Shown here: piece by piece, positions 31,406 through 57,100 of the stretch | Layout of the letters: the number at the start of each line of letters is the position of its first letter | Position numbering within the stretch: position 1 is the stretch's first letter | Assembly (NCBI GenBank): GCA_017427385.1 | Contig: JAFRSW010000022.1 | Span: forward strand, 124,001 to 188,000 | Source of the DNA: Bacteroidales bacterium | GTDB taxonomy: Bacteria > Bacteroidota > Bacteroidia > Bacteroidales > UBA932 | DNA length: 64,000 nucleotides | Direction: 5' to 3' | Made by a program: the position numbers and the translations under genes | The notes under the pieces: generated by a model | Databases searched by the model: none | Seen by the model: only the letters and a program-made list of their open reading frames with translations | What the model was told of the DNA's origin: nothing

Positions 31406-34066
31406 TCAATAGACGTTCCAGTAAGGAATAACCTCGGGGGTCTGTCCGAGGCAGTCTTGCAGAGAGCCCACGTATTTGCGGTCCACGGCCATACGGAACA
31501 TGTAGGTGCGCCACCAGTCGGCGCTCATTTGGATGTATCCCCCGGCTCCGCGGCCCAGCCCGAAAGAGTTCTCCGCCACCCAGTCGACAACGATATCCCT
31601 GAAGCCCGACCTCGGGATGTAACGCACCCCACACATGGCCATTGCATGGGCGGATGAAATGTCGCGACTATCGAACAATTCAGCCTTGGACATGGCTGTA
31701 TGCACGCCCAGGAGCGAATCCAGCGGGAACAGAGACGAGTCGTAAACGCCCTCGTCTGCAAGGGCATCCTGCAGGGTATCCACAGTGAAATAGAACTTGT
31801 CCCCTCCCCGGAGCGAGGCCAGGCCTATGAACTCGAGGTCCTCGCAGGACAGATTCAGGAAGGTCCAGTCGGTGCCGTCAGCGGCATTGCGGGAGCCCTC
31901 CACGCGGTACATCTTATTATAGGGCAGGCGCGGATCGTTCATCAGCATCACATAGCGGTCGCTGAGGCCGGGGGCCACGAACGCGTCCCGGAAGGATGCC
32001 GGAGTGTACTCGCGGCCTTCGAAAGTGAAGGATGCCGGGGGCTCGCCAAGGGTGGCGGTCAGCACGCGGCGCACATCCTCAAGTGCCTTCACGCGGAGTG
32101 CCTCAGGATCGGTGCTCACGCGCATCTGCATGCCGTAGGCGCGCAGCATCTTGCGAAGCTCGCGAAGCAGCGACGCGGAGTTCTGCGAAGTGAAGGTTTC
32201 CGGCATGGCCGAAGATGGCACAACTCCGTATTTCTCAATCAGATAGACGGCGTTCATGAAGTGTCCGCCATCCCATGTCGGGCGGCGGAAGATGGATACG
32301 TTGTAGCGGCTGTCCACGGGCTCCTTACGGTGCTCCCACACTTCTACAAGGAAGAGGTTCGCTTTCTCCATCATGTCCCAGAAATAGGGATAGACGACGC
32401 TGAATTCAAGGTCGCCGCGAAGGACGTTGGCCGTAGCGAAGTACCAGCAGCGGCCGGATTCGGCCTGATTCTGTATTCCGGAAGACTTCAGGAAGATGTT
32501 CAGCCCGGTGGTATCCGCCGTCGGCCTTGCGGTAGGTACAACCGACGGGATGCCTCCCTTGCGTAAATCCGGCACAGGCTCTGCGGAGCAGGCCGCTTTG
32601 CCCGTCCGCATATCCGGCATCGTGGCCGACATCGAAGCTGCGGCGAGGAACGGAGGCCGACGGTTCCCCATCATGGGCTCGAACTTGAAATCCGGCCCAC
32701 GGCGCTTCAGGAATTCAGACCGCACCTCGGAAAGCAGCTTGGCATCCGTAAGCAACTCTACTGCAGACAGATACAGCACCTTGGCAGCACCGATGGCACC
32801 CTTCGTGCCGATTGTGGTGCCGCCGCTGGAAACCTGCTGCCAGCTGTGCCCCACTCCGCCCGGAGCGAAGCACGCATAACGGAAACTGCCTGTGGGCACA
32901 GCCCATGTCACGTTTCCAACGTCGCTCGAAACATACGCCTCATAGCCTTCATCGGCCGGAGGCACGACGACCGCAAGGCGGTCTATCAGCGCAGCATCCG
33001 CGCCGGACTCGGCCGCAATCGCCTGAGCGAAAGCCAGTTCGCGAGCATCCAGTTTGATGCCGCCCACCTTCTGTAGCGAACGCATCACCAGATCCGCCAT
33101 CGCCTCGTTGGGCAGGCGCTCATAGTTGCCGGACACCAGCTCGTAGTCCATCGTGGTGCCGGTGCCGAGAGCGGCGCCCTCCGCGGCCTTCAGCGCACGT
33201 GCGAGTATATCCTGCACGGTCTCGCGGGACGGGCTGCGGAAATAGTACTTCACGCTGGCCTGCGAAGGCACCACGTTGGGAGCCTTGCCGCCATCCGTTA
33301 TAACATAGTGGATGCGGGATGTCTGGGGGACGTGCTCGCGCATCATGTTCATCATGTAATCGAAGGCCTCCACCGCATCCAGGGCCGAACGGCCGGCATC
33401 GGGAGCACCCGAGGCGTGGGAGGATTTGCCGTGGAAAGTGAACTGCACCTGCACGTTGGCCAGGCCGGTGGCCTTATTGACAGTATTGCGGGTGTCGGGA
33501 TGCCAGTCGAGCATGGCGTCCAAGCCCTCAAACACGCCCTCACGCATCATGTAGGCCTTGCCTCCCCCGCCTTCTTCCGCAGGGCATCCGAAGAGTTTTA
33601 CCGTGCCCTTGTGCCCGGCCGCCAGCCATTTGCTGACCGCCACCGCACCGGCCACGGAACCGGTTCCGAGGAGATTATGCCCGCATGCGTGTCCGGGCGC
33701 TCCGGGCACGAGGGGCTTCTGGTAGGCCACTGTATCCTGACTCATGCCGGCGATCGCGTCATACTCCGCCATCATGCCTATAACGGGTTCGCCGCTGCCG
33801 TAGCTGGCCACGAATGCCGTGGGGATGCCCGCCACGCCGCGCTCCACCGTAAATCCCTGGCTTTCAAGGAAATCAGTCCACTGCTCCACGCTGCGGAATT
33901 CCTTGTAGCCGGTCTCTGCAAAGTTGAAAATCTGCTTCTGCAGGGAGTCGTACAACTTAAAGCTGGCATCCAGATACTTGATACCAACGTCAGTCTTCGG
34001 CTTCTTCGCCGCCTGCAGGCTTACGGCCAGAGTGCAGGTCAGTAAAAGTATGATGATTCTTTTCAT
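31406..34066 (-). CDS. Fused M20 amidohydrolase and C1B (bleomycin hydrolase-like) peptidase
   Basis: The 886-residue exported protein (MKRIIILLLTCTLAVSLQAA) has two enzyme units. Residues 25-460 are an M20D amidohydrolase of the AbgB type, with metal-ligand motifs HACGHN (126-131), PAEEGGGG (162-169), DWHP (187-190) and VGHSW (405-409). Residues 520-886 are a C1B papain-like peptidase: oxyanion Q534, nucleophile C540 (SGRCWYFA), H807 (SSAHAM) and N833 (AENSFG). A Pro/Thr/Ala-rich linker at 480-520 joins them. Both sets of catalytic residues are intact, so the fusion may deliver two linked steps, such as peptide trimming and amide hydrolysis. It starts 3 bases after the GltS-like gene. Confidence 0.88.
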   Translation of the reverse strand: MKRIIILLLTCTLAVSLQAAKKPKTDVGIKYLDASFKLYDSLQKQIFNFAETGYKEFRSVEQWTDFLESQGFTVERGVAGIPTAFVASYGSGEPVIGMMAEYDAIAGMSQDTVAYQKPLVPGAPGHACGHNLLGTGSVAGAVAVSKWLAAGHKGTVKLFGCPAEEGGGGKAYMMREGVFEGLDAMLDWHPDTRNTVNKATGLANVQVQFTFHGKSSHASGAPDAGRSALDAVEAFDYMMNMMREHVPQTSRIHYVITDGGKAPNVVPSQASVKYYFRSPSRETVQDILARALKAAEGAALGTGTTMDYELVSGNYERLPNEAMADLVMRSLQKVGGIKLDARELAFAQAIAAESGADAALIDRLAVVVPPADEGYEAYVSSDVGNVTWAVPTGSFRYACFAPGGVGHSWQQVSSGGTTIGTKGAIGAAKVLYLSAVELLTDAKLLSEVRSEFLKRRGPDFKFEPMMGNRRPPFLAAASMSATMPDMRTGKAACSAEPVPDLRKGGIPSVVPTARPTADTTGLNIFLKSSGIQNQAESGRCWYFATANVLRGDLEFSVVYPYFWDMMEKANLFLVEVWEHRKEPVDSRYNVSIFRRPTWDGGHFMNAVYLIEKYGVVPSSAMPETFTSQNSASLLRELRKMLRAYGMQMRVSTDPEALRVKALEDVRRVLTATLGEPPASFTFEGREYTPASFRDAFVAPGLSDRYVMLMNDPRLPYNKMYRVEGSRNAADGTDWTFLNLSCEDLEFIGLASLRGGDKFYFTVDTLQDALADEGVYDSSLFPLDSLLGVHTAMSKAELFDSRDISSAHAMAMCGVRYIPRSGFRDIVVDWVAENSFGLGRGAGGYIQMSADWWRTYMFRMAVDRKYVGSLQDCLGQTPEVIPYWNVY

Positions 34067-34069
34067 AAT

Positions 34070-35398
34070 CTATTGTTTACGCAACCACCCACGGACCACG
34101 GCAAAGGCCAGGATAGCCACCCCCAGCAGGGCGCAGAGCCCCACGAAGAGCCAGCCGAAGCCATAGGCGAACGCCAGCGGCGAAAGCGACACCAGCGCAA
34201 TCTCCACGGGAGCGATATACAGGTAGGCAAAGGCGTAGTCGTCCAGGCATCCGCTCTTGCTCTCCGGGTCGGTGATGCGCAGCAGGGCAATGCCCATGGC
34301 CATGGTGCCGGTGAACCATCCCCAGGTGAAAATCGATTTCTCGAAGGGATAGGTGCGATGAATGCGCGCGCCCACCCAGAACACGTATAACAGAGTCAGC
34401 AGCAGCCCGACCGCCAGCAGGATCAGCAGCGGCACGATGTAGTGCCCCACTATCTCCAGGCGGATGGATGCCACGCCGAAGGCCACCAGGTAGTCGGTGA
34501 AGGCCCCGCTGAGGTGCCCGATGATGGGTTTGGAGAGATGCTCCTCCACCTTAGCGCGACGCAGGAACCAGCGGACCAGCAGGCCCACGATGAATGCGCA
34601 ACTGAACACCGGCAGCATCAGTGCAGGCCAGGCCCAGGAGATGAGTTTCGCAAGCCCGAAGCCACCCAAAGCAATCAGCGCCACCATGGCGAAATTGAAA
34701 GTCATGGAGTCCAAGGAGATGGCAGAGAAGGATGCGAGGCCCATGCTGGTGCGCTTGTCCGGGGGCAGGATGCCCGTCCGGAGTTCAGGCGCCAGGGATT
34801 CATAAGCGCAGATGAATTTGGTCTTACCGTGCTCCGCCCCCCAGGTTATCAGCCACATGCCTATCACCACAGAAGCGATGATTCCGACGGTGGCAGCAGT
34901 CATGGCGAGCGACTGCATTTCCTCCACGCCATAGTTGGCGAAAGATTCCCCTATCGCCGCGGCCGTGCCGTGTCCGCCGCAGAATCCGGCAGGCATCGAG
35001 AGGCCGAAAGCCCCGTTAACCGGCCATATCTTGCTGAGCACCCACAGCCCCAAAGCACCGCCCAGGGCCCACTGCAGCAGCATTCCGACCTGGGAATACG
35101 CCCACATGCGCCCCACGCGGGAGTTGCCGTCAGCGGATTTCTTAACAGCCGACGTAAGGGGTATGCAGCTGAACACCAGTGCAATCAGGATTCCGGCGTA
35201 AGTGCCGAGGTTTCCGGAGAGCGGAAGCCAGCCCAGAAGTTCCGGGCCGAGCACCAGACCGAAGAGGCCTGCAATCAGGCTCGGAGGTATGAAAAGCCTC
35301 TGGATCAGCCGCACCTTTGCACGGAGAAACTTCCCCAGCAGAAGAAGCAGGGAAATCAGTCCGACATCGATCAGCAGGGTCCAGGGCGTAAAGGTCAT
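34070..35398 (-). CDS. GltS-like sodium:glutamate symporter
   Basis: The 442-residue membrane protein has about 10-12 helices with the glutamate:Na+ symporter (ESS) signatures: 'RLFIPPSLIAGLFGLVLGP', 'GGHGTAAAIGESF' (the conserved glycine-rich loop), and 'SISLDSMTFNF'-like region near 230-245. It probably imports glutamate or a related acid. Its ATG overlaps the stop of the Ntn hydrolase (ATGA) and its own stop lies 3 bases before the peptidase fusion, which suggests uptake of amino acids released by those hydrolases; this is inference. Confidence 0.85.
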   Translation of the reverse strand: MTFTPWTLLIDVGLISLLLLLGKFLRAKVRLIQRLFIPPSLIAGLFGLVLGPELLGWLPLSGNLGTYAGILIALVFSCIPLTSAVKKSADGNSRVGRMWAYSQVGMLLQWALGGALGLWVLSKIWPVNGAFGLSMPAGFCGGHGTAAAIGESFANYGVEEMQSLAMTAATVGIIASVVIGMWLITWGAEHGKTKFICAYESLAPELRTGILPPDKRTSMGLASFSAISLDSMTFNFAMVALIALGGFGLAKLISWAWPALMLPVFSCAFIVGLLVRWFLRRAKVEEHLSKPIIGHLSGAFTDYLVAFGVASIRLEIVGHYIVPLLILLAVGLLLTLLYVFWVGARIHRTYPFEKSIFTWGWFTGTMAMGIALLRITDPESKSGCLDDYAFAYLYIAPVEIALVSLSPLAFAYGFGWLFVGLCALLGVAILAFAVVRGWLRKQ

Positions 35399-36564
35399 AA
35401 TACAGAGTTTTTGAATTCTTCGAAACGGACGGCAGCACCGGCATTGTATTCAGCCACCGCAGCAGCATCGAAAGCCACACGCAGGCGCTTTTCCAGCCTG
35501 CGGCCAAGCTTCAGCTCGCGGCGTTCCGCCTTGCGCACGGCTTTCAGAACCCTACGCAAAGGCTTTACTTCCAGATATTTGGAAGACCCGGGCCAAGCCA
35601 TGGTACTGAGCGACTTCTGCACCTCCGTTGCAAAACGGCTGGCTGGTGCATCGCCGCTTACCGGGGCGGCGATATCCTTCCCGGCAGCTACCCACACAGG
35701 AATGGCATAGCTGCAGGGAGTGTTCCCCACCGCGCACCACATCACGCCGGCATCGGCCCGTTCACCGGGCGCGACACCCTCGATCACAATCGACGAAGTG
35801 GTGGATTGGCGGGGGATGAAATCGTGTTCGAAAAGATATCCTTTATGCTTGCAGCACAGCGCGTTACCACCGGCAAGCACATTGATGAACGAGCGCCCGA
35901 GACGCATGAAGAAGCCGGGGGTGAAGCTGCGGCGCACGCGAAGGCCCTTTCCGGCCCGACGGGCCATCAGTTCCTCCATCGTGGCATATCGCGCGAAGCC
36001 CTTTCCGCGGCCTTCATCGCCCGAAAGGGAGTAATTGGTGCGGAAGAGATAGCCGCCCGCAGGCACGTCGTAACGTACATAAGATGTGTCGGAAGCCTCC
36101 ACATAGGCTGCTCCGCCGAAGGCATCTATAACGGTAAAATTGGCGCTGACACGCCTGGGGGCGGGTTTTGACTCCAGCAGGGCAATAAACTCATCCACCG
36201 TCCGGCAGCAGCCCAGAGCGGCCGCCATCATCTCCCCGTTATTGGTATCGAAGCCCAGCGAATCGGGCCTCAGGTTATAAGAAAGGTTGTTTGCGATTGC
36301 GAATCCCACCTCATTAATCCCCGCGTACGCGCGCGAGGTGGCCTTCTGCGACGGCAGCAGTGCGGTGTAGGCGTATTTCTCGCCCTGCATGTGCGCAACC
36401 GTATTGAACGGCGCATTCGCATCCCGCTGCTTCCAAATCATAGGCCGCCCCGTCCCACTCGCCTCCGCAGAAACGATCGCGGTGGTGCACGCAATTGCGT
36501 TTGCACTGAAAAGCAGTGCAAACGCAATCAGGCTACTTCCTAATCTTATACCCGTAATACGCAT
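35395..36564 (-). CDS. Exported Ntn hydrolase (C45/choloylglycine-like)
   Basis: The 389-residue protein has a signal peptide ending at 'LLFSANAIA' followed directly by C26 in CTTAIVS. In N-terminal nucleophile hydrolases of the acyl-transferase/bile salt hydrolase type, signal cleavage exposes this cysteine as the catalytic residue. 'MIWKQRD' and 'FAIANNLSYNL' fit the R/D and N residues of the family. The substrate is an amide of unknown nature (N-acyl amino acid, beta-lactam-like or conjugate). The start lies 32 bases inside the 3' end of the sugar transporter gene, in another frame. The stop overlaps the GltS-like gene. Confidence 0.7.
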   Translation of the reverse strand: MRITGIRLGSSLIAFALLFSANAIACTTAIVSAEASGTGRPMIWKQRDANAPFNTVAHMQGEKYAYTALLPSQKATSRAYAGINEVGFAIANNLSYNLRPDSLGFDTNNGEMMAAALGCCRTVDEFIALLESKPAPRRVSANFTVIDAFGGAAYVEASDTSYVRYDVPAGGYLFRTNYSLSGDEGRGKGFARYATMEELMARRAGKGLRVRRSFTPGFFMRLGRSFINVLAGGNALCCKHKGYLFEHDFIPRQSTTSSIVIEGVAPGERADAGVMWCAVGNTPCSYAIPVWVAAGKDIAAPVSGDAPASRFATEVQKSLSTMAWPGSSKYLEVKPLRRVLKAVRKAERRELKLGRRLEKRLRVAFDAAAVAEYNAGAAVRFEEFKNSVL

Positions 36565-37723
36565 AGAACATTATCAAAAGGTAGAACGGCAGGCAGATCC
36601 AGTAGGCAGGCTGATTCCCCACCCAATCCTTCATCGCGCCGAAAAGCAGCGGAATCAGGGCGCCGCCGCCGATGGAAGCCACCAGAAGCGAAGATCCCTT
36701 CTTGGTAAACTTGCCCAGATCCACTATGGCCAGAGGCCAGATGGCGGGGTACATCAGCGAGCACGCGAAGCTAAGCAGCGCCACGCACCACACCGAAATC
36801 TGCGGCGGGGTGAGCACGATGGCCAGCGAATCCAGAACGGCGAGCCAGGTGCAGATGCGGAGAGCCTTCACCTGAGAAATCACCTTAGGGATGCACAGGA
36901 TGCCCAGGATGTAGCCTGCGGCCATTCCTATTCCTGGCCAGATGGTATAACTTTCAGGATTGGGAAGCCCCTGCTCCTGAGCATAGTCCAAGACCGTCAA
37001 CAGCGCCAGGTTCTCCACGCCAACGTACACGAACAGCGCCAGCGCCCCCAGCACCAGGTGCGGGAACTGCCAAATGTTCTTCTTGCCGGCGGCGTAGGGG
37101 CAGTCCTCCTCGTTCTCCTCCCCTTCTGCCTTTATCTCCTCGAGCGGAGCGAAGAAGGTGATGATGCCCAGCAGGGCTACCACGGCGATGATGATGATCA
37201 GGGGTTTATCCAGATCCACCAACCCCACGGCCTCGATGGGCTTGCGGGTGACGGCGGCGATGAACACCGACGGCAGCGCCAGCGCCAGCGAGTTGCATAT
37301 CCCCATTATGGAGATGCGCCTTGCGGCGGAATCTATGGGCCCGAGTATGGTCACGTAAGGATTGATGGCCGCCTGCAGCACCGTGTTGGCGGTTCCGCTG
37401 ATGAAGCAGGCCAGCAGGTAGAGCGCGAAACTCTCCAGGCGCGCGGCCGGGATGAACAGCGCGAACGCCAGCGCGAACATGAAGAACGCCAGCGACATGG
37501 TGCGCTTGTATCCGATCTTCGCGATGATGGAGGATGCCGGGAAACTGAACACAAGGAAGGCCAGGAAGGTGGCCGCGATCACCAGATAGCTCTGGGCGGA
37601 GCTCAGGTTCAGGTTATTCTCGAGGAACGGCACAAAGTAGCCGTTGATGCCCGTGGCGAAACCCACGGTGAAAAACATCATCCCTATGAATGCAAGGGGA
37701 ATTATGTACTTGTTCTTTCCCAT
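36533..37723 (-). CDS. FucP/MurT-like sugar MFS transporter
   Basis: The 396-residue membrane protein has about 12 helices and the FHS (fucose/GlcNAc-type H+ symporter) pattern: 'MMFFTVGFATGINGYFVPFL', 'IGYKRTMSLAFFMFAL', 'GTANTVLQAAINPYVTILGP' and 'PAIWPLAIVDLGKFTKKGSS'. It directly follows a BadF/BadG-type sugar kinase gene with a 3-base gap, the same order as the murTK pair in Tannerella forsythia, where MurT imports MurNAc. Import of MurNAc or GlcNAc is therefore the favoured reading. Confidence 0.78.
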   Translation of the reverse strand: MGKNKYIIPLAFIGMMFFTVGFATGINGYFVPFLENNLNLSSAQSYLVIAATFLAFLVFSFPASSIIAKIGYKRTMSLAFFMFALAFALFIPAARLESFALYLLACFISGTANTVLQAAINPYVTILGPIDSAARRISIMGICNSLALALPSVFIAAVTRKPIEAVGLVDLDKPLIIIIAVVALLGIITFFAPLEEIKAEGEENEEDCPYAAGKKNIWQFPHLVLGALALFVYVGVENLALLTVLDYAQEQGLPNPESYTIWPGIGMAAGYILGILCIPKVISQVKALRICTWLAVLDSLAIVLTPPQISVWCVALLSFACSLMYPAIWPLAIVDLGKFTKKGSSLLVASIGGGALIPLLFGAMKDWVGNQPAYWICLPFYLLIMFYAYYGYKIRK

Positions 37724-37726
37724 AGT

Positions 37727-38575
37727 CTAATGATTCAGGTGATATTTGATCAGCCCTTCCATGGGAGCCTTGAGGATGGTTCCCATCTTCATTCCGAATT
37801 CCTCGACCACCGACTGAAGGAGGGGCTTGAAGTAGTAAGCCACCGAACCCACGGCATTGAAGGTATACTTCTGATAATCAGGATAATGCGTGACTATCAA
37901 AAGGAAGAACTGGCGGAAGGCATCCGTCACCAGGTTCGGGAAATACGGATCGAAGTCCAGGTGCTCGTTGATGAACTTTGCATACTGGGCGCAGAAGCGG
38001 TTGGGGAAAGGTTTGGTATAGATAACGTCCAAGAGTTCGTCGTTGTTGCGGCCGAGTTCGCGGCCTACCAGCTCATATACCTTTGCGGGCATGTTGCGGC
38101 GGATGTAATCCGTGATCATGCGCTTGCCAAGATTGCCGCCGGAGCCTTCGTCTCCGAGGATGAATCCGCAGCTGTCTACGTTAAGGCCTTCGTTGCAGCC
38201 ATCGTACAGGCAGGAATTCGCACCCGTGCCAAGTATGGCGGCAAAACCGGGCTCCGCCTGCAGAAGCGCACGGCACGATGCCAGCGTATCCATCGCGATG
38301 AAAACCCTCCCCGCCTTGGTGAACACCTCGCGGAGGGTCTTCTCCATGAAAGGATACTGCAGTTCCGTCACGCCCGCGCCGTAGAAGTATATCTCCTCCA
38401 CCAGCGAAGGGTCGAGCTCCGCCGGAAGATTGGCACGGATATCCGCAACTATCTGTGTACCTGTAATATAATTGGGGTTATACCCCTGGCTATAGAAGCC
38501 TATGCGGGTGCTGCCGTCACGCGACACGCACCCCCACTCGGTCTTCGTAGCCCCACTGTCTGCTATCAATATCAT
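37727..38575 (-). CDS. murK: BadF/BadG-family amino-sugar kinase (MurK-like)
   Basis: The 282-residue cytoplasmic ASKHA kinase has phosphate-1 motif ADSGATKTEW (5-14), the 'DTLASCRA' sugar loop (96-103), phosphate-2 GTGANS (116-121) and GDEGSGGNLG (141-150). The BadF/BadG family includes human GlcNAc kinase and the MurNAc kinase MurK of Tannerella. Its place directly before an FHS transporter, with murQ on the same strand, favours MurNAc (to MurNAc-6-P) over GlcNAc, but sequence alone cannot exclude a GlcNAc kinase. A dispersed repeat fills the gap to the GHL10 gene upstream of it. Confidence 0.75.
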   Translation of the reverse strand: MILIADSGATKTEWGCVSRDGSTRIGFYSQGYNPNYITGTQIVADIRANLPAELDPSLVEEIYFYGAGVTELQYPFMEKTLREVFTKAGRVFIAMDTLASCRALLQAEPGFAAILGTGANSCLYDGCNEGLNVDSCGFILGDEGSGGNLGKRMITDYIRRNMPAKVYELVGRELGRNNDELLDVIYTKPFPNRFCAQYAKFINEHLDFDPYFPNLVTDAFRQFFLLIVTHYPDYQKYTFNAVGSVAYYFKPLLQSVVEEFGMKMGTILKAPMEGLIKYHLNH

Positions 38576-38580
38576 AACAC

Positions 38581-38607
38581 TGTCATTCTGAGCGAAGCGA
38601 AAGAATC
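38581..38607. repeat. Dispersed repeat, copy 2 (inverted)
   Basis: TGTCATTCTGAGCGAAGCGA then AAGAATC is the inverse of the copy at 24525, with a few changes. Here too the repeat's GATTC end abuts a TAG stop, that of the GHL10 gene. Confidence 0.7.
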
Positions 38608-39479
38608 TACTTCAACTGGTTCAAATCAGGCAATTCTCCGAGGCCGTAGCGGAACAGCACCACGCCTTCGGCCTTGGTGGAATCCTTGAACATCTTGCAG
38701 TCCTGAAGGATCTTCTCGGCATTCATGGGCACAACATGCTCTGTTTCAGTATCTTCGTAGGTGGTGAGGCCTGCCCACACCTTTGCAGGAGCGCCCTTCG
38801 TGGCGAAATGGTCGGCAACCATCTGGGCCCAGGGCCTGCCGCCCTTGCGATATGAATCGCAGTGGAAATAAATCATAGGCATCAGGATATCGATGTACTG
38901 CCCCATCTGGGCGGGATCCTGGCCATACCAGTACTCGCTGTCCGGCTCGGGCATCAGGGCTGCAGAGAGCACGATCTTGGGATTAACGGCCTTGGTGGCC
39001 TGGCTGATCTGCTTGCAGAACTCCGTAACGCAGCCGGTGGCGGTGATTTCCTCGGAAGGATTATGCTTGTGGGCGGTGCCGCCGAAGCGGATGTAATCGA
39101 GATGGATGCCGTCCACGCCGTATTTCACATACTGCACGGCGCGGCCGATGACCTCGTCGAAATATTCCTGCTTGTAGCGGTTCAGGGAATCGTCCACGGG
39201 GTTGATCCACTTGCCGTCCTTGTAGAAGGCCTGGAACCAGATGTGCACTTTCATGCCGCGGCTCTGCGCCTCGTGGATGAATGCGAGGGTGGAATCCACT
39301 CCGTGGCGCTCGAAGGCGACTTCATGAAGGATGATGTTGTCAATCGCCTTGGCGTGGAATTCGTCAAGGTCGACTTCGTTCATAAACTTGGACCAGAGCC
39401 AGATGGCGTTGGTGTTAGTGGCCTGCTTGCAGGATACCAGAGCGGCCGCGAACAGGAAGGCGATAAATATCTTTTTCAT
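38607..39479 (-). CDS. Small GHL10-type putative glycosidase lipoprotein
   Basis: The 290-residue lipoprotein (MKKIFIAFLFAAALVSC) consists of little more than the barrel: 'IWLWSKFMNEVDLDEFHAKA', 'SRGMKVHIWFQAFYKDGKW', 'VKYGVDGIHLDYIRFGG' (the conserved acidic DYIRF segment), 'IVLSAALMPEPDSEYWYGQD', 'IDILMPMIYFHCDSY' and a final 'GVVLFRYGLGELPDLNQL'. The last piece is nearly repeated in the two LTD-fused relatives, so the three genes are paralogues. The DigH precedent suggests cleavage of peptidoglycan-like glycan. It lies 12 bases after the transglutaminase-like gene. Confidence 0.72.
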   Translation of the reverse strand: MKKIFIAFLFAAALVSCKQATNTNAIWLWSKFMNEVDLDEFHAKAIDNIILHEVAFERHGVDSTLAFIHEAQSRGMKVHIWFQAFYKDGKWINPVDDSLNRYKQEYFDEVIGRAVQYVKYGVDGIHLDYIRFGGTAHKHNPSEEITATGCVTEFCKQISQATKAVNPKIVLSAALMPEPDSEYWYGQDPAQMGQYIDILMPMIYFHCDSYRKGGRPWAQMVADHFATKGAPAKVWAGLTTYEDTETEHVVPMNAEKILQDCKMFKDSTKAEGVVLFRYGLGELPDLNQLK

Positions 39480-39491
39480 ATAGACTGTATT

Positions 39492-40808
39492 TTAGAAAGG
39501 AAGTTCCTTATAGCGTCCGTTGAATTTGTTCATGCCTTTCCATGAGGGATTCCCCATGGTTGCGGAATTGTTGGAAGGGTCGCATATCCACCAGCGGTGG
39601 CCGTCCCATATTTCGGGAATCACATGGCCGATGACGCCGGAAGAGAAGTAGCACTGGCCGTGCATATATCGGGCAGGGATGCCTGCTGCGCGGCACATTG
39701 CAAGCGTGGCATGGGTAAGGTCGCAGCAGTTGCCGCCCTTGGCCTGGATAGTCCTTACAGACCCTTTGCTGGTATTGGAGTAATCTTCCCACTCCCACTG
39801 GTCTCGGGCATACTCGAACAGGGCTTTGACTTTCTGAATTTGTGTCGCATTCTCAGGAAGCTTGGCCAGGGCCGCATCCTTGGCGGCAATCACAACAGGG
39901 TCATCTATGGCGCAGTTGTTTGTCTTGCGAAGATAATCCGAACCCCAGGTGCAGACCTTTTCGGGCAGCTCGGAATTGTGCTTGTAGTAATGGAATACGC
40001 GGAGCAGTGCCGCGCCGTAATCGGCCCAGATCAGGTTGCCTATATACTTGACACCGTCCTTGAAGGGGTTGTCGTATGTATATGTGAAAGTGCTGTCCTG
40101 GCCGCGTCCGGGGCAGGTAATGGTGCCGAAAGATACATAGTTCGGCATCGCGCCGTGGCTCTCGGCATAGGTATAGGCCTTTGCGGCAGCCCAAGTCAGG
40201 GCTTCGAGGGAGATACTGTCCTGCTCGAAGGTGTTATTCGCATAGGTCGTATTGTTCGACATCCGTACGGGAACATCAATCTCTTCATCTTCCCAATGCT
40301 CGGGATCGTCCTGTATCTTTTGCAGCAAGAGGCAGGCAGATGCCAGATACTGGCCCTTGCTCCAATTCAGGCCATCCACATTTACGGATGTAGGGAGCTC
40401 ATCCTTTTCAAGGAAAGCCTCGTATGCATTGGCAATACCGTCTGCCATTAACTTATTAAACGGAATACCTTTTTGCTTGATTACAATCTCAATACCATCA
40501 GTAACATTACCACCTGCGATAATAATACTACTTTCTCGTGAATCACTTCTGTTCTCAGAGACTGTCACTTTAAGGGAAACCGTGTCCGCATCACCCGAAG
40601 GAGGATCAATAGTAATCCAATTACAGTCATTAGATACCATTGCTGTCCAAGAAGTTTTGGCTAAAAAGATTACTTCTTCAGTGCTCTCCCTATACCTGAA
40701 GTCAAGTTCAGTAGTTGTAATCTGGATGTCAGCCTCAGGAACTTTATTGCAGGCGCAGGCGCCGAAAAGAAGGCTTCCTGCCAGGATGAAAAACAGAAAC
40801 TTTCTCAT
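39492..40808 (-). CDS. BACON + PMBR-like + transglutaminase-like peptidase lipoprotein
   Basis: The 438-residue lipoprotein (lipobox LFGACAC) begins with a BACON domain (about 26-112), continues with two stretches resembling pseudomurein-binding repeats (118-165; 200-230 with MPNYVSF), and ends in a transglutaminase-like peptidase. The predicted triad is C361 (GGNCCDLTHATLAMC), H395 (GVIGHVIPEI) and D410 (WWICDPSNN), with 'RAAGIPARYMHG' between. The lead-in 'YARDQWEWEDYSNTSKG' and the end 'FNGRYKELPF' match my memory of the methanogen-virus endoisopeptidases PeiW/PeiP (C71). It should cut peptide or isopeptide bonds in cell-wall cross-links. The substrate is unproven. Confidence 0.75.
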   Translation of the reverse strand: MRKFLFFILAGSLLFGACACNKVPEADIQITTTELDFRYRESTEEVIFLAKTSWTAMVSNDCNWITIDPPSGDADTVSLKVTVSENRSDSRESSIIIAGGNVTDGIEIVIKQKGIPFNKLMADGIANAYEAFLEKDELPTSVNVDGLNWSKGQYLASACLLLQKIQDDPEHWEDEEIDVPVRMSNNTTYANNTFEQDSISLEALTWAAAKAYTYAESHGAMPNYVSFGTITCPGRGQDSTFTYTYDNPFKDGVKYIGNLIWADYGAALLRVFHYYKHNSELPEKVCTWGSDYLRKTNNCAIDDPVVIAAKDAALAKLPENATQIQKVKALFEYARDQWEWEDYSNTSKGSVRTIQAKGGNCCDLTHATLAMCRAAGIPARYMHGQCYFSSGVIGHVIPEIWDGHRWWICDPSNNSATMGNPSWKGMNKFNGRYKELPF

Positions 40809-40872: not shown

Positions 40873-43800
40873 TTATTTCGCGAACTGTGCGACCTCGATA
40901 ATAGGGCTGGTGAAAGCTCCATTAACGTTGACTGTCGAACCAGCGAGGCGTGTGGTACCGGTGTTGAGCTTTGTCAAAGCCTTATCGTTATCCGCCCTGT
41001 TCGTAGCAACAACGGTAGCACGTATCTCAACAGTGCTTGTTGCAGAAGTAAGCTCGAATACGGATTCAACAGTAGTGTTGGCGCTTCCGTCCTTCTTGGT
41101 CCTGGCATTGTAGCTGAATGTGTCGCTGCCAATGGTCTTGCTCTGAACTGTAGGGAATGCAAATTCAGTCTCTTCGCCAGCAGCAGGAATCAGAGAAGCA
41201 GGTTTCCATTCGGCACCATCCTTATACTCCACAAGGAAGTAACCGGGGCCGGACTTGGAGGAACGGAAGATATACTTGAAGTGAATCTTCGTTCCGGCAG
41301 CCAGCTCAGAATCACTGGTGGCCTTGAAGAGCCAGTAGTCGCCTGTCCAAGGAGCCTTTATGCAAACATGACCGGTGCTTCCGACATTGTGGCCGGCATT
41401 TGCACCACCTTCCATTTCAGTCTTATCGATCTGAACATAGGTGATACGGCCATTTCCGTTCCAGTTTGCATCGATATACTGTCCACCGTCGCCGGGTTTA
41501 GCATCGGATGTATATGCGTTGCCAGCGAAAACGCCATTATCTATTGTCGGGGTTCCACCAAAGGTGTAGCCATAAGAGGTTTCAGAAGCTCCAGCTGCTG
41601 CAGCGCTGAATTCCCACCTTGCAAGCTGCTGTCCGTCAACGCCGAAGAGGTCGGTACGGAATGTTTCGTCAGCAGTCACCTCGGTACCCTTGTCATATTT
41701 CTTGCCAATCATGTACTTGAAGAAATATGCAAAGGTAATGAGTGCGCGCATGGAGCTGAAGCTGCCATGATAGGTGGTAATACCCTGGTCGGGACGAGGA
41801 TAGGTGCACATGTTGGTGATAGGCTTGCCGTGCGAATAGTTCAGGGAACGCATCGCCCAGTTGTCGAGGACGTCGACCTTTGCCCAGCCGAAATCCTTGA
41901 GGTTGTCGGTACCTATCATTGCAAAGTTGCCGCCGTTTCCGGAGGTTTCGTTGCAAGGAGCCTCACCCCAGGTGTATCCGTGAGTCTCAGGAACGGGAGT
42001 CTCGCTCATGGAAAGAGCACCGCCGTCAAGGGCAGCAATCTTACCTGCACCGTAGCTCTCGGTATCAAGTCCGTTGTAGCCACGGATGAGGAGATAGCTG
42101 CGGAGAGCGGTCTCGAACATGTCGGCAGTGTTGTAGGTCTTTTCAAGCTTTCCGGTCGCGTCCTTCACGGTGATTGTGTAATCATCGGGAATGAAGTGGG
42201 CGTTCTTGGTGGCAGCGACGCTGGAATGCATCTTCTTTTCACCCACGTTCGCCATCCATACATCCAGGATCTTCACATACTCGTTCGCAAAGTCGGCGAT
42301 AGTGATGACGGGCTGAGGCTCGGGCTCACCTTCGTCGCCGAAGAGTTCGGTGCGGATGTTCACGCTAGCATCAAGACCGTCAGCCTTGTCGAGGCTGTTG
42401 TCCAGCATGTACTTGAAGAAGAATGCGTAGGTGATGAGTGCACGCATCGAGCTGAAGCTGCCCGCGTAGTTGTTGAACGGATCGCGAGGATAGGTGCACA
42501 TGTTGGAAATAGGATTACCGCTGCTATAGTTGAGAGCGCGCATAGCCCAGTTGTCCAGGAGGGTAGGATCGGTCTGACAATGCACTGCCGCACCGTCGAC
42601 GATCTTAATGAAGTGTCCGCCGTTGCTGGTGGTAGCTCCGGTGGCGACATCGTAGGTGCCGGTCTCATTGTAAGGGTTGGCACCCCACTTGTACTCGTGG
42701 GTGTCGGGAACGACGGTCTCGCTCATAGCCTTTGCGCCACCGTCGAGAGCGGCGATCTTGCCTGCACCGTAGTTCTTGGTGTCGGCTCCGTCATAACCGC
42801 GGATGAGGAGGTAGCTGCGGAGAGCGACCTCGAACATGTCGGCGGTATTGTAGGTCTTGGTGCCAACGGTGATGGTGGTAGTGGAAGGTACGTAGTGAGC
42901 ATTTTCAACAATGTTGCTGCCGCCCTCGTATGCTTCACCCTTCAGCATGTCGATGGAACCGGTGGTGTTCTTCCAGATGTCGAGAATCTTGACATACTCC
43001 TGTGCGAACTCCTTGATGGTTGCAGTGTTAGGAGCAGTGTACTCAGCCTGCTTGACAGTGATTGCAACGCCGTCGGTGACGTTTCCGCCCTTGATGACAA
43101 CCGTGCCTTCACGTGCCTCGCCCTTGTTCTCAGCAGCCTTTACCTTGATGGTGATTGCGCCGGCTTCGCCGGATGCGGGCTCGACGGTGATCCAGTCTGC
43201 GGAAGGAGTTGCGGTCCAGGCAGCCTTTGCTGCGAAGACAGCTTCCTTGGTCTCCTCGGTGCAAGGGAATTCAAGCTCGGTGGTCTTGAGCTGGATGTCC
43301 TTATCGTTGTTGGCGGTGTCGATTCCGAAGAGCTCGGAACGGATAACCACGTCTGCGCCGATCTTGTCGATATCCTTGGTGATGTTGTTATCCAAGAGAT
43401 ACTTGAAGAAGAATGCGTAGGTAAGGAGTGCACGGCCGGAGCTGAAGCAGCCCTTGTAGTTGGTGATGTTGTGGTCGGCACGAGGATAGGTGCAGAAGTT
43501 GGTCCACATCATGTCGTTGGTGAACGAGAAGTTCAGGGAACGCTGTGCCCAGTTGTCGAGGATGACAACGTCGACCTGGCCATAGGTGTCGATTTCATCG
43601 ATAACCTTGCAGAGATAGCCACCGTTGCTGGTCTCGATGAGAGGTTTGTTCCAGCCATACTGGTGGGTGGCAGGCATAGGAGTGTTCATGTTCGCAGGAG
43701 TAGCGGCTGCGAAGGAGCCGAATCCTACTGCATCCACTGCATTACCGTCGTAACCACGGAGGAGCAGGTAGCTGCGGACTGCAACTTCGAGCATGTCTGC

Positions 43801-44580
43801 GGTGTTGAGAACGGTCTCACCAATCCTGATTTCGGTATTATTGGGAACATAATGGGCGTTCTCAACAATATCGGCATCGCCATCTTCGGCAAGCTCCCAG
43901 TTGGAGAGACGGTCGAGCGTACCGACGTTCTTCTGCCAGATATCGATAATCTTCACATACTCCTTGGCGAATGCCTGGATGGAGCTGCCGGCGCCCTTGA
44001 AGCCTGCATCGACCTCAGCGTCCAGTTTGCCGTTGGCCTTGTAGTTGGCAAGCTCACGGGAGATGACGGTGGTTGCACGCTCGGTGGAGAATGCTACCGC
44101 GTTGTCGCCACGGGTGAAGTTGGTCTGGTTAGGAACGCGCAGGTCGCTCTCCATGCGGGTGAGCATCCTGGTTGCAACGTTCACAAGGTCTTCGGTGTCT
44201 TCACCGACCTTGGGTCCGTTGGTAACGGCGATGGTCTCCTTGTCGTAGCTGTCCCTGTCGGGATGGTCTGCAGCCTTGAAGGTGAGCACATCGATGTCGT
44301 CCTTCTTGCCAGCGCTCAGGTTGACCAGAGCCTTGCAAATTGCATACTGATACTCAGGAGTCTTGAGGTCCTTGCTTCCAACCTTGATGGTTTCGGCAAA
44401 AGACTCAGTCTCTTCCCAAGCCGCATAGGCACCGGCTGCCGCATCAACGATTTCGGTCAGTTTGAAAGTGCCCACATAGTTCTCCGGATTGTCAGGTCCT
44501 TCAATCTCATTCTTTTTACAGCCTGAGAAGGCGACCATCAAAGCCACGGAGGTCATCAGGAAAAAACGGAATTTTTTCAT
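40873..44580 (-). CDS. Giant PMBR-like repeat lipoprotein
   Basis: The 1235-residue lipoprotein (lipobox AFSGC) opens with a domain (35-195) whose pattern 'EIVDAAAGAYAAWEETE...', 'IKVGSKDL', 'PEYQYAICKALVNLSAGKKD' and 'VATRMLTRMESDLRVPNQTN' resembles the two-lobed pseudomurein-binding repeats of methanogen wall proteins. It then has three related units of about 220-235 residues (near 199-420, 518-752, 762-985), each with 'FAKEYVKI.DIW', 'NTADM.E.ALRSYLLIRGY', 'LDNWA.RSLN', 'NMCTYPR' and 'SMRALITYAFFFKYMLDN'. A BACON domain (424-512) sits after unit 1 and a jelly-roll-like domain at the C-terminus. It probably binds wall polymer at the surface. No catalytic motif is seen. Confidence 0.65.
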   Translation of the reverse strand: MKKFRFFLMTSVALMVAFSGCKKNEIEGPDNPENYVGTFKLTEIVDAAAGAYAAWEETESFAETIKVGSKDLKTPEYQYAICKALVNLSAGKKDDIDVLTFKAADHPDRDSYDKETIAVTNGPKVGEDTEDLVNVATRMLTRMESDLRVPNQTNFTRGDNAVAFSTERATTVISRELANYKANGKLDAEVDAGFKGAGSSIQAFAKEYVKIIDIWQKNVGTLDRLSNWELAEDGDADIVENAHYVPNNTEIRIGETVLNTADMLEVAVRSYLLLRGYDGNAVDAVGFGSFAAATPANMNTPMPATHQYGWNKPLIETSNGGYLCKVIDEIDTYGQVDVVILDNWAQRSLNFSFTNDMMWTNFCTYPRADHNITNYKGCFSSGRALLTYAFFFKYLLDNNITKDIDKIGADVVIRSELFGIDTANNDKDIQLKTTELEFPCTEETKEAVFAAKAAWTATPSADWITVEPASGEAGAITIKVKAAENKGEAREGTVVIKGGNVTDGVAITVKQAEYTAPNTATIKEFAQEYVKILDIWKNTTGSIDMLKGEAYEGGSNIVENAHYVPSTTTITVGTKTYNTADMFEVALRSYLLIRGYDGADTKNYGAGKIAALDGGAKAMSETVVPDTHEYKWGANPYNETGTYDVATGATTSNGGHFIKIVDGAAVHCQTDPTLLDNWAMRALNYSSGNPISNMCTYPRDPFNNYAGSFSSMRALITYAFFFKYMLDNSLDKADGLDASVNIRTELFGDEGEPEPQPVITIADFANEYVKILDVWMANVGEKKMHSSVAATKNAHFIPDDYTITVKDATGKLEKTYNTADMFETALRSYLLIRGYNGLDTESYGAGKIAALDGGALSMSETPVPETHGYTWGEAPCNETSGNGGNFAMIGTDNLKDFGWAKVDVLDNWAMRSLNYSHGKPITNMCTYPRPDQGITTYHGSFSSMRALITFAYFFKYMIGKKYDKGTEVTADETFRTDLFGVDGQQLARWEFSAAAAGASETSYGYTFGGTPTIDNGVFAGNAYTSDAKPGDGGQYIDANWNGNGRITYVQIDKTEMEGGANAGHNVGSTGHVCIKAPWTGDYWLFKATSDSELAAGTKIHFKYIFRSSKSGPGYFLVEYKDGAEWKPASLIPAAGEETEFAFPTVQSKTIGSDTFSYNARTKKDGSANTTVESVFELTSATSTVEIRATVVATNRADNDKALTKLNTGTTRLAGSTVNVNGAFTSPIIEVAQFAK

Positions 44581-44634: not shown

Positions 44635-45984
44635 TTACCTCTTGTATAAGTCGTTGATATCGGGGAAGGTGCCGAGCTGATAGCGGAAAAGCACCAGGCC
44701 TTCGGCCTTGGTTGCTGCCATCAGTTCGATGTCCCTCCTGAGTTCTTCGGCGGTCATTCCGGAATTGTTGGCATTGTAGGTCTGGATACCGGACCAGGAA
44801 ACGCCGCCCTTACCTCCCATGGATGCCTGGTTCGCAAAGTAGTCGGACCTGTCCTGGAAAGTCTCGTCGCTGAAATTGTATGAGCCGTAGCGATAGATCA
44901 TGGGCATCAGGATATGGATGTACTGCGACATCAGATAGCCCGCCTGCCCGTAGTTGAGTGCGCCGTTGGTTTCGGGCATCATGGCTGCGGAGGTGATCAG
45001 GCCTTCGTCGTAACTGTCTGTTATCTCGCGTATCTCGCGGCAGCAGCGGTTCACGGCCGCCACGGAGTTCACTTCACCGTAATTGTGCTTCTGGGCGGTG
45101 CCGCCGAAACGGATGTAATCCAGATGAACTCCCTTCACGCCCCAATTCTCGAGATAATCGATGCATTCGTTGCGGATACGCTCATAAACTTCTTCCTTAT
45201 ATGCTTTCTTCTCGTCGTCGATGGGGCTTTCCCAGCCGCCGTTGTAGAAGCACTGAATCCACACATGGACCGTAAGTCCGATCTCTTCGCAAAGAGGGAT
45301 CAGTTGTCTGGCCAGTTTACGGTAGGGCACCGAGCCGAACGCCGCGAAATTCAGAAGGATATGGTCGTAACCTTTCGCCTTAAGCTCCCTCAGGTTCTTG
45401 GCGTCATTGTAGAGGAGGTCGCTCATGTGCGCGCCCCAGGTCCACACAGCGGTAGGCCGGGTCTTGGAGATGTCGAAGATGACGTTTTCCTTGCCGGGGC
45501 TAGAGTATGTTAGTTTGCGCATCTCTCCGGTTGCATCCGGAATGCGCTGCCAGCTGGCGAAATAACCAAGCGTGGGACCGTCGGCCGCATGCTCGAAACT
45601 GTCCACCGGATCATCCTTGGAAGGACCGAGGACAAGGGTGAACTGATCGTTGGATGCGAATCCTGTGCGAAGTCCTTTGTCTTCTGTGGAGAGGACCTTC
45701 CTCTCGCCGGGAGCCATACTGCCGGAAAGCTCGCAGATGTTCTGCCCCTTAAAATTACTGTCCGAGATAAACAGGGAAAGGCCATCCAGCGTTATGGCCT
45801 CCGTCGAGGTGTTCACCAGTTCCACCCACGTGGCGATGTCTTCCGAATCTTCGTGGGCGGCGATTTCGTTAAGCACTATGCCTTCGTACTTTGCAGATGC
45901 CTTCTCCTTGTTCTTATCCTTGTCACAGGCTGCGGCCGACAGCAGCACGAGGGCGGATGCGATTATGATTCCGGGTAGTTTCAT
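44635..45984 (-). CDS. LTD + GHL10-type putative glycosidase lipoprotein
   Basis: The 449-residue lipoprotein (lipobox SAAAC) has an N-terminal lamin-tail domain (about 33-165: 'GIVLNEIAAHEDSEDIATWV', 'LDGLSLFISDSN', 'VLSTEDKGLRTGF') followed by a GHL10 barrel (about 175-449: 'AVWTWGAHMSDLLY', 'GLTVHVWIQCFYNGG', 'VKGVHLDYIRFGGTAQKHN', 'IHILMPMIYRYGSYN'). Lamin-tail domains in exported bacterial proteins are thought to be binding or anchoring folds. Its ATG shares one base with the murQ stop (TAATG), coupling it to MurNAc metabolism. The substrate is inferred to be wall glycan. Confidence 0.72.
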   Translation of the reverse strand: MKLPGIIIASALVLLSAAACDKDKNKEKASAKYEGIVLNEIAAHEDSEDIATWVELVNTSTEAITLDGLSLFISDSNFKGQNICELSGSMAPGERKVLSTEDKGLRTGFASNDQFTLVLGPSKDDPVDSFEHAADGPTLGYFASWQRIPDATGEMRKLTYSSPGKENVIFDISKTRPTAVWTWGAHMSDLLYNDAKNLRELKAKGYDHILLNFAAFGSVPYRKLARQLIPLCEEIGLTVHVWIQCFYNGGWESPIDDEKKAYKEEVYERIRNECIDYLENWGVKGVHLDYIRFGGTAQKHNYGEVNSVAAVNRCCREIREITDSYDEGLITSAAMMPETNGALNYGQAGYLMSQYIHILMPMIYRYGSYNFSDETFQDRSDYFANQASMGGKGGVSWSGIQTYNANNSGMTAEELRRDIELMAATKAEGLVLFRYQLGTFPDINDLYKR

Positions 45985-46814
45985 TACTTCAGGATTCCTT
46001 CTTTTTTGAGATACTCTTCAGCCTTCTTGAGGCCGCCGGTCTTCTTGATTATCTCCTCGCAGTACTCGTAGCTGAGCTGGGGGTTGCGCTCCACCATGGT
46101 GCGGGTGAGACGGTCGATGACCTTGTTGTTGATGAGATTGGCACATACCATGCGGTTGCCTTCAACGCGGCCGAGGCGCACCATGAGGGTGGTGCTGATC
46201 ATGTCGCAGAGGAGTTTCTGGGATGTGCCGGACTTCATGCGGGTACTGCCGGTAATGAATTCGGGGCCCATTACCACTTCGATGGGATAATCCACATACG
46301 AAGATATAGGGGACCCCGGATTGTTGCAGATGCTTCCGCAGGGAATGCCGTGCTCTTTGCAGGCCTTCATGGCCGCGAGCACGTAGGGGGTGTTGCCGCT
46401 GGCGCTGATGCCCACCACGATATCCTTGGGGGTGATATGATGCTTTTCGCTGAGGGTCCTCCATCCTTCTTCGGTGTCGTCTTCAGCTTCTTCGAGGTCC
46501 AGGACGAGATTCTCGTTGCCTCCGGCAAGCACCGCCTGCCAGATTTCGGGATCTACGCCATAGGTGTTGGGAACCTCGAGAACGTCCAGCACGCCGAGCT
46601 TTCCGCCGGTGCCGGCGCCCAGCCAGAAGAAGCGCCCTCCGGAACGGAGCTGCGCCTCGATGGCATTTACAAGTCTTTCTATATCAGGAAGAACCGCCTC
46701 GATGGCGAGGGGAACTTTCTTGTCTTCGGTGTTGATGTCCCGCAGCAATTCTGCTACGGACTTCTTCTCCAGATGGTCGTAGAGCGAGGGTTGCTCTGTA
46801 AGTCTAATTGCCAT
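45984..46814 (-). CDS. murQ: N-acetylmuramic acid 6-phosphate etherase
   Basis: The 276-residue cytoplasmic enzyme splits D-lactate from MurNAc-6-P to give GlcNAc-6-P. The SIS fold and family signatures are clear: 'FFWLGAGTGGKLGVLDVLEV' with E80 (equivalent to E. coli E83), 'GISASGNTPYV' (phosphate loop, about 136-145), and 'TGSTRMKSGTSQK' (188-200). MurNAc occurs only in bacterial peptidoglycan, so this is the firmest clue to a substrate of the locus. It follows the second GH20 gene by 19 bases and shares a base with the next gene. Confidence 0.94.
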   Translation of the reverse strand: MAIRLTEQPSLYDHLEKKSVAELLRDINTEDKKVPLAIEAVLPDIERLVNAIEAQLRSGGRFFWLGAGTGGKLGVLDVLEVPNTYGVDPEIWQAVLAGGNENLVLDLEEAEDDTEEGWRTLSEKHHITPKDIVVGISASGNTPYVLAAMKACKEHGIPCGSICNNPGSPISSYVDYPIEVVMGPEFITGSTRMKSGTSQKLLCDMISTTLMVRLGRVEGNRMVCANLINNKVIDRLTRTMVERNPQLSYEYCEEIIKKTGGLKKAEEYLKKEGILK

Positions 46815-57008: not shown

Positions 57009-57037
57009 ATCGTTTGGTTTGGTTGATTTCCAATTTT

Positions 57038-57045
57038 CAAATATA
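57038..57045 (-). promoter_or_regulatory. -7 box for susC
   Basis: On the minus strand TATATTTG, a perfect -7 match, lies 30 bases before the SusC ATG and just after a terminator, so SusC probably starts a new transcript. No -33 TTTG is evident. Confidence 0.5.
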
Positions 57046-57048
57046 AGC

Positions 57049-57080
57049 AAAAAAAACGGATTCCGTGTAACGGAACCCGT
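57049..57080 (-). terminator. Terminator between the transglutaminase-like gene and susC
   Basis: On the minus strand ACGGGTTCCG, loop TTACA and CGGAATCCGT (one G-U pair) are followed by a run of eight T that includes the last stem base. It splits the locus into two transcripts. Confidence 0.8.
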
Positions 57081-57100
57081 AAAACGAACACTTATAACGG

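Follow-up and report, generated by a model that had tools for sequence, protein, structure and literature searches.

A Drs3-type lipoprotein, putatively a Cys-His-Asp isopeptidase, in a conserved Bacteroidales locus, probably for wall-polymer utilisation, that may act on methanogen pseudomurein

Why does a Bacteroidales bacterium carry a lipoprotein that recalls the wall-cutting enzymes of methanogen viruses, and which polymer would the genes around it handle? The gene in question, here called TG1, lies in the window (the whole stretch of DNA that was analysed, 64,000 nucleotides). An earlier note had read it as a lipoprotein with stretches that recall pseudomurein-binding repeats (PMBR) and a transglutaminase-like Cys-His-Asp domain, and had proposed an archaeal-type cross-link peptidase resembling PeiW and PeiP of family C71, possibly directed at methanogen walls. 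The open reading frame is real, with exactly the coordinates given for it on the minus strand, and its start has the features of a lipoprotein-type signal. The stretches named as landmarks, MPNYVSF (residues 221-227), YARDQWEWEDYSNTSKG and GRYKELPF, all occur in the protein, and the proposed triad of C361, H395 and D410 is invariant in all 15 aligned members of its family (the TG family). The genes considered here are as follows.

31406..34066, minus strand: M20 peptidase/amidohydrolase and C1-type peptidase in one ORF of 886 residues
34070..35398, minus strand: GltS-like symporter (57.6 bits, below the equivalog cut-off of 310.75)
35395..36564, minus strand: C45-type acyltransferase/amide hydrolase (Pfam AAT above cut-off; NCBIfam C45 58.5 bits, cut-off 85)
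36533..37723, minus strand: NagP/GluP-like MFS carrier (NagP 274.5 bits, cut-off 625; gluP subfamily 215.1, cut-off 202.55)
37727..38575, minus strand: sugar kinase from the group of GlcNAc and MurNAc kinases; its lactyl-pocket motif reads DSC
38607..39479, minus strand: GHx_short, putative glycosidase lipoprotein (DUF4015 36 bits, cut-off 27; GHL10 below cut-off)
39492..40808, minus strand: TG1, the subject of this report, lipoprotein of 438 aa with BACON, PMBR-like repeats and a transglutaminase-fold C-H-D domain
40873..44580, minus strand: PARTNER1, 1235 aa, BACON; N-terminal module with relatives in the TG repeat region and in Drs3 residues 4-149; by eye, it has internal repeats
44635..45984, minus strand: LTD_GHx1, lamin-tail-like and GHx-type domains (LTD and DUF4015 below cut-off), 40% identical to GHx_short
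45984..46814, minus strand: divergent MurQ paralogue, GTGGK in place of GTSGR
46834..48681, minus strand: GH20 beta-N-acetylhexosaminidase a
48678..50480, minus strand: GH20 beta-N-acetylhexosaminidase b
50481..51818, minus strand: neutral-ceramidase-like protein
51819..53864, minus strand: SusD-like lipoprotein
53877..57167, minus strand: SusC/RagA TonB-dependent porin, which probably starts further downstream than the ORF does
57101..58177, minus strand: TG2, second TG copy, 358 aa, with LPNYVTF and without BACON
58242..61847, minus strand: PARTNER2, 1201 aa, BACON
61884..63218, minus strand: LTD_GHx2, Pfam matches below cut-off, 39% identical to GHx_short

A Pfam scan of TG1 against 24,736 models placed a BACON domain at residues 58-113 and a Transglut_core domain at residues 321-411 (E 1.1e-17). 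The supposed binding repeats were recovered in part: the PMBR model (PF09373) matches residues 198-227, ending in MPNYVSF, with an E-value of 3.2e-5, and its score of 24.2 bits stays just under the cut-off of 24.9. In a six-frame search of the host genome the same site reaches 27.4 bits, above the cut-off, and among 14 control genomes searched in this way none has a match above it and 10 have some weaker match at E<=1. Across the phylum sample, matches at E<=0.001 occur in 4 of 395 genomes and a match above the cut-off in one, the host genome. Within the TG family, 11 of the 15 members match at E<=1 and four do not, and the TG-carrying genome G023 gives no PMBR match at E<=0.01. From the scores, the control genomes, the phylum sample and the member counts taken together, the signal appears to be beyond chance yet weak for the Pfam model, and the repeat appears, judged by sequence, genuine but eroded. 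TG1 has a single repeat at Pfam level; profile alignments suggest more, common to the virus protein Drs3_00035 and the PARTNER proteins. No tandem repeats were found in the DNA. According to the available text of PMC2989375, pseudomurein binding was reported to need at least three repeats (MTH719), and PMBR had been recorded in seven bacterial proteins by 2010; a PMBR in a bacterium is therefore not new in itself.

The second TG copy and the conserved operon round both copies went unmentioned in the earlier note. TG2 has no Pfam PMBR match at E<=0.1, and the two TG genes are the only transglutaminase-core genes found in the host genome (77.75% complete).

Membership in family C71, that of PeiW and PeiP, whose structures are solved as 8jx4 and 8z4f respectively, was not borne out. 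Peptidase_C71 (PF12386), which scores PeiP at 318.5 and PeiW at 295.9 bits, matches none of the 15 members at E<=1, and Pfam files the catalytic domain of TG1 under Transglut_core. Compared by hhalign with five Pei proteins, the TG family is a distant relative (Prob 86.5, E 4.6e-6). TG1 as a C71 enzyme is thus ruled out by profile; its layout, repeats followed by a C-H-D domain, is Pei-like, and it is classed here with the Drs3 type. What stands of the archaeal-type cross-link peptidase is that no sequence searched lies nearer to the repeats and the C-H-D domain than a methanogen-virus wall protein; that the enzyme may be used against methanogen walls is strengthened by the operon.

The virus protein is Drs3_00035 (MH674343, 'pseudomurein-binding repeat protein'). 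When 50,697 phage records were searched with TG1 by tblastn, 11 matched at E<=1, and the top two belong to one virus, Methanobacterium virus Drs3 (E 3e-22, query residues 207-438; next record E 0.01). Drs3_00035 scores 62.4 bits with PMBR, 52.8 with Transglut_core and 20.7 with C71, just below the cut-off of 22. It is 33% identical to TG1 over 238 aligned positions, in an alignment that spans the repeats, the linker, the catalytic domain and the C-terminal ELPF, and further members match along its residues 26-300 (L151, 42% over 157 positions; L153, 33% over 235; L152, 29% over 296). The 15-member family aligned with Drs3 by hhalign at Prob 99.9 and E 1.5e-33. A profile of the catalytic domain only gives Drs3 107.9 bits, against at most 46.7 for 36 other transglutaminase-core rows (29 from the phylum sample, one from the genus, four from plasmids and two from phage-labelled records; L111 and L125 badly read), 32.3 for the methanogen-virus protein vir080 and 2.5 to 17.7 for five C71-type Pei proteins. 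With a profile of the non-catalytic repeat region, Drs3 (16.5 bits) and PeiW (14.7) rank first, the best of the 36 rows scores 4.7 and the best of 200 shuffles 4.8, and PeiP, at only 2.9 bits, lies inside the shuffle range.

A tree of 49 rows separates the 15 TG members and Drs3 from 33 others with support of 100/99. Drs3 is nested in the TG family in this tree, and the alternative with Drs3 outside is not rejected (p-AU 0.227). After six archaeal-virus rows were added, one side of the tree holds the TG family, Drs3 and the Pei proteins and the other the 33 and vir080 (82/98); Drs3 groups with the Pei proteins (86/94), and long branches meet in this tree. Searched with Drs3, the phage records returned Drs3 itself plus a weak match to vir080 (E 4e-6), and the plasmid records returned no match. 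TG2 matched plasmid records in the catalytic part only, with a best E of 2e-8 among the best 30 of 67 records, and these 30 are annotated as transglutaminase or unannotated. Scans of viral contigs with the TG family, Drs3 and a mixed alignment gave nothing, and being seeded on short exact patterns they are a weak test of absence. As well, a profile search of the PDB with the TG family gave one match at E<=0.1, the bacterial transglutaminase-like enzyme 3isr.

In its genome, Drs3_00035 comes after ORFs 33 and 34. Virus PhiF3 has homologues of these two ORFs and, one gene later, a gene annotated as a putative pseudomurein endoisopeptidase, whose product has a C39 domain and matches PMBR below the threshold. 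Going by the PhiF3 gene order, Drs3_00035 sits at the expected lysin place, and by this position it is a putative lysin. Among the sequences searched, which came from phages, viral contigs, plasmids and bacteria of the phylum, the TG family is by sequence nearest to a methanogen-virus wall-binding protein. We group these proteins as Drs3-type PMBR-transglutaminase proteins, to which TG1 belongs by homology through the repeats, linker, catalytic domain and C-terminus. Could TG1 be an ordinary transglutaminase-core lipoprotein whose PMBR likeness arose by chance? A score at the cut-off and four of 15 members without a match at E<=1 speak for such a reading; however, the phage search, hhalign, the catalytic and repeat profiles and the tree all set the family apart from transglutaminase-core proteins and with Drs3, and we consider chance likeness very improbable. 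The possibility that TG cross-links the surface of the cell that makes it was considered and put aside.

The TG genes do not travel alone. In 15 regions read from relatives the gene order is retained, with the kinase in 12 and GHx_short directly beside TG in 11, while the remaining regions stop short at the end of a contig or of the region read, show a different arrangement (G106, G076) or could not be resolved (G068). SusC and SusD accompany the locus in the window and in G069, G137, G062, G106, L145, L151 and L152, and the other regions end earlier. Three more genomes also keep the locus, one from the host genus and two from another genus in the family. A match through the repeat and catalytic parts is present in at least 13 of 151 genus genomes, host included; among the matches listed, 74 other genus genomes appear, and their matches, where shown, lie mostly in the BACON part (a few extending to about residue 227 at 26-31% identity) or, in G112, in the core. 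GHx-type proteins, in the short or the LTD form, occur in 16 of the 151, all 13 TG genomes among them, and 15 of these 16 hold TG or operon pieces: G072 and G132 have operon pieces, with TG maybe absent or past the contig end. In G162, by contrast, the GHx gene does not lie in a locus of this kind. In L141 (G072:C114, 9655-13552), PARTNER is followed directly by GHx_short with no TG gene between, and additional PARTNER-type and GHx-type copies lie near TG in L050 (7552-12285) and L008 (7939-12692).

Beyond the genus, profile searches that scored no more than 5 or 10 candidates in each genome found the TG family in 1 of 393 order genomes and 1 of 395 phylum genomes (the host in both) and in 6 of 199 family genomes, four of the host genus and two of another. 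The TG locus is thus confined to one bacterial family in the samples searched. Six named relatives are Bacteroidales or Bacteroidia metagenome-assembled genomes, and four of the six titles bear Reindeer or RUG, the latter of which we take to stand for rumen, pointing to a rumen source.

With its adjacent susC/susD pair and degradative enzymes, kept across species, the locus is, by gene content, of the polysaccharide-utilisation type. The N-terminal module of PARTNER is recognised by the TG repeat-region profile in 12 of 16 PARTNER-type proteins (whole-protein E 2e-12 to 6e-5), against a best value of 0.08 in 80 shuffles and no domain at E<1 in nine other window proteins. By profile comparison PARTNER matches the TG family at Prob 98.6 and Drs3 residues 4-149 at Prob 87 (E 3.8e-6), and no match to PeiW/PeiP was obtained; Pfam PMBR is matched in none of 11 PARTNER proteins at E<=1. 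LTD_GHx1 and LTD_GHx2 (44635-45984 and 61884-63218) carry a DYIRFGG-type motif and a DUF4015/GHL10-like domain, a candidate new glycosidase family, and a PDB search for GHx gave one weak match (E 0.031). Long M20-C1 ORFs like that at 31406-34066 are present in several relatives. The ceramidase-like protein at 50481-51818 is found here in a glycan locus, and it may, speculatively, act on a wall-polymer amide.

Such an inventory could also serve another HexNAc-rich, peptide- or acyl-bearing polymer, for instance a host or microbial glycoconjugate, with the TG domain as a general peptidase. The GH20, NagP-like and kinase parts fit many HexNAc glycans, and transglutaminase-core proteins are widespread, occurring in 48 of 80 phylum genomes; TG, however, is specifically near a methanogen-virus wall protein, alike in both repeats and catalytic domain, which makes this reading rather improbable.

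The main rival substrate is bacterial murein. According to this explanation, the PMBR-like repeats would bind murein and TG would cleave its peptides, and MurNAc would be dealt with by the kinase and the MurQ-like enzyme in the manner of murTKQ. The operon MurQ does pass the PRK05441 subfamily model (289.9 bits, cut-off 168), and the positions of the catalytic glutamates are kept in the operon clade alignment. However, it falls short of the TIGR00274 equivalog (242.2 against 302 bits), and it belongs to a separate clade scoring 283.7-297.5 bits with PRK05441, against 338.1-372.2 for canonical copies. In place of GTSGR, GTGG(K/R) stands in all 11 aligned operon copies and in none of 13 canonical ones, as well as in three of three further copies, and DVLEVPNTYG or a similar sequence replaces DASEI.PTYG in the operon clade. 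By TIGR00274 and the GTSGR motif, then, the operon protein would not count as a canonical MurQ. This divergent copy occurs in 12 of the 13 genomes that have the system, against none of 15 others tested. Canonical MurQ is present elsewhere in 9 of the 13, including the host, where two canonical MurQ-kinase pairs lie apart from the locus (L139 9206-10967, C20; L140 9726-11400, C18). No canonical match was found in the other four (G062, G076, G093 and G149), in which the operon copy could be the sole MurQ, a point in favour of murein, nor in 9 of the 15 others. According to the available text of PMC12680351, three serines are reported to hold the phosphate in MurQ; its relative NagS, which dehydrates GlcNAc-6P, contacts both phosphate and sugar through a serine, and a mutant of that serine stayed active. 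The GTSG serine may be one of the three in MurQ.

The operon kinase bears on the same question. Its solved relatives include MurNAc kinases, which would suit murein. The MurNAc kinase MurK has an S-P-L motif at the lactyl pocket, as described in part in PMC10465942. When this motif was mapped onto the operon kinase by alignment to 1zbs and relatives, D was found at the first position in 14 of 14 operon kinases and three of three further ones, against none of 11 MurQ-linked genus kinases; the genus canonical kinases are also without S-P-L, having RSG or alike, nearer the MurNAc kinase K1058. Since an acid at this position should disfavour the carboxylate of MurNAc, the motifs are an argument, though no proof, for a cytoplasmic sugar other than plain MurNAc. 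In favour of murein, murTKQ is made up of the same three gene types, for a carrier, a kinase and a MurQ-type protein, in the accessible part of PMC10465942, though the three are non-adjacent here. Against murein stand also the nearest TG relative found, an archaeal-virus protein, and the Pfam-scanned locus proteins, which have no match to NlpC/P60, CHAP, M23, muramoyl-alanine amidase or lysozyme families (for SusC, SusD and GltS the scan used NCBIfam alone). On balance we hold murein to be the less likely substrate.

Our preferred reading, to which we give a probability of about 0.55, is that TG1 is a Drs3-type lipoprotein and putative Cys-His-Asp isopeptidase in a conserved wall-polymer utilisation locus, the polymer being most likely the pseudomurein of Methanobacteriales. 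It is built on observed homology, operon conservation and changed motifs, from which we infer the substrate, the surface location, the bond cut and each step of the pathway. The TG and PARTNER lipoproteins would bind the wall through their repeats, and TG would cut the peptide cross-links, while the GHx proteins and the GH20 enzymes would open and trim the HexNAc backbone. The pieces would be imported by SusC/SusD and the NagP-like carrier, the L-amino-acid peptide would be removed by the C45, ceramidase-like, M20 and C1 enzymes, and glutamate would be taken up by GltS. Finally, the divergent kinase and the MurQ-like enzyme would process a HexNAc other than plain MurNAc.

Pseudomurein is not known to contain a lactyl ether. 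A MurQ-family enzyme, even a divergent one, at first sight implies MurNAc and thus bacterial murein, which counts against pseudomurein, as do the barely reached PMBR model with its one repeat, the PeiP score within shuffles, and PARTNER without PMBR or PeiW/PeiP match. The MurQ-like enzyme may instead use elimination at C3 of a 6-phosphorylated HexNAc, freeing a C3-linked backbone sugar and not lactate. The cross-links of pseudomurein consist of L-amino acids (described in part in PMC10658910), and its peptide contains Lys and Glu and its backbone is beta-1,3-linked with GlcNAc or GalNAc (from parts of PMC2989375 and PMC2812497). Because the polymer is cross-linked through L-amino acids with glutamate, the peptide-handling parts of the locus would suit it. 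Taken together, the sequence evidence suggests, but does not prove, that bacteria of the TG group feed on archaeal cell walls.

The wider claim of a bacterial pseudomurein-eating pathway, a surface-to-cytoplasm locus in rumen-type Bacteroidales with a virus-type cross-link isopeptidase and previously undescribed GHx and LTD-GHx pseudomurein glycosidases, is put forward tentatively, at somewhat less than even odds. To our knowledge, neither an earlier pathway of this kind nor a glycosidase of the pseudomurein backbone has been known. A literature search by title and abstract start, with most subscription journals outside its scope, found no bacterial pseudomurein-degrading locus, and none appears in the available portions of PMC12596118 and PMC10658910. 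According to the accessible part of PMC6189367, neither lysozyme nor the known wall hydrolases of bacteria attack methanogen walls. If the pathway is true, methanogen walls would be food for particular gut bacteria, which bears on rumen carbon turnover and methane control, and the locus would be a source of candidate pseudomurein-backbone glycosidases and of mesophile lytic enzymes for rumen methanogens. Moreover, gene sharing of methanogens or their viruses with Bacteroidales would become directly testable.

Among known systems, murTKQ of Tannerella forsythia (PMC10465942, in part) likewise combines a carrier, a kinase and a MurQ-type gene; unlike it, as far as the published description goes, the present locus has changed kinase and MurQ motifs and joins SusC/SusD with TG genes. 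NagS, likened by description and not by sequence, shows that an enzyme related to MurQ can act on a substrate other than MurNAc, but is confined to Streptomycetaceae in the available text of PMC12680351. PeiR (PMC6189367, in part) and the PhiF3 C39-type lysin resemble TG in joining PMBR to a cysteine peptidase directed at methanogen walls, and differ in having the C39 fold, not transglutaminase, with a sub-cut-off PMBR match in PhiF3. PeiW and PeiP share with TG an N-terminal PMBR, a C-terminal C-H-D domain and a distant profile match, whereas all 15 TG members are without a Peptidase_C71 match and their catalytic domain is far nearer that of Drs3. Drs3_00035 has in common with TG1 the repeats, the linker NC..(N/D)DPV, the motifs GNCCDL(S/T)H, GHV and DPSNN, and the C-terminal Y(R/K)ELPF; in contrast, the Bacteroidales TG is a lipoprotein, has BACON in 2 of 15 copies and weaker repeats, and resides in a SusC/SusD locus rather than in a virus.
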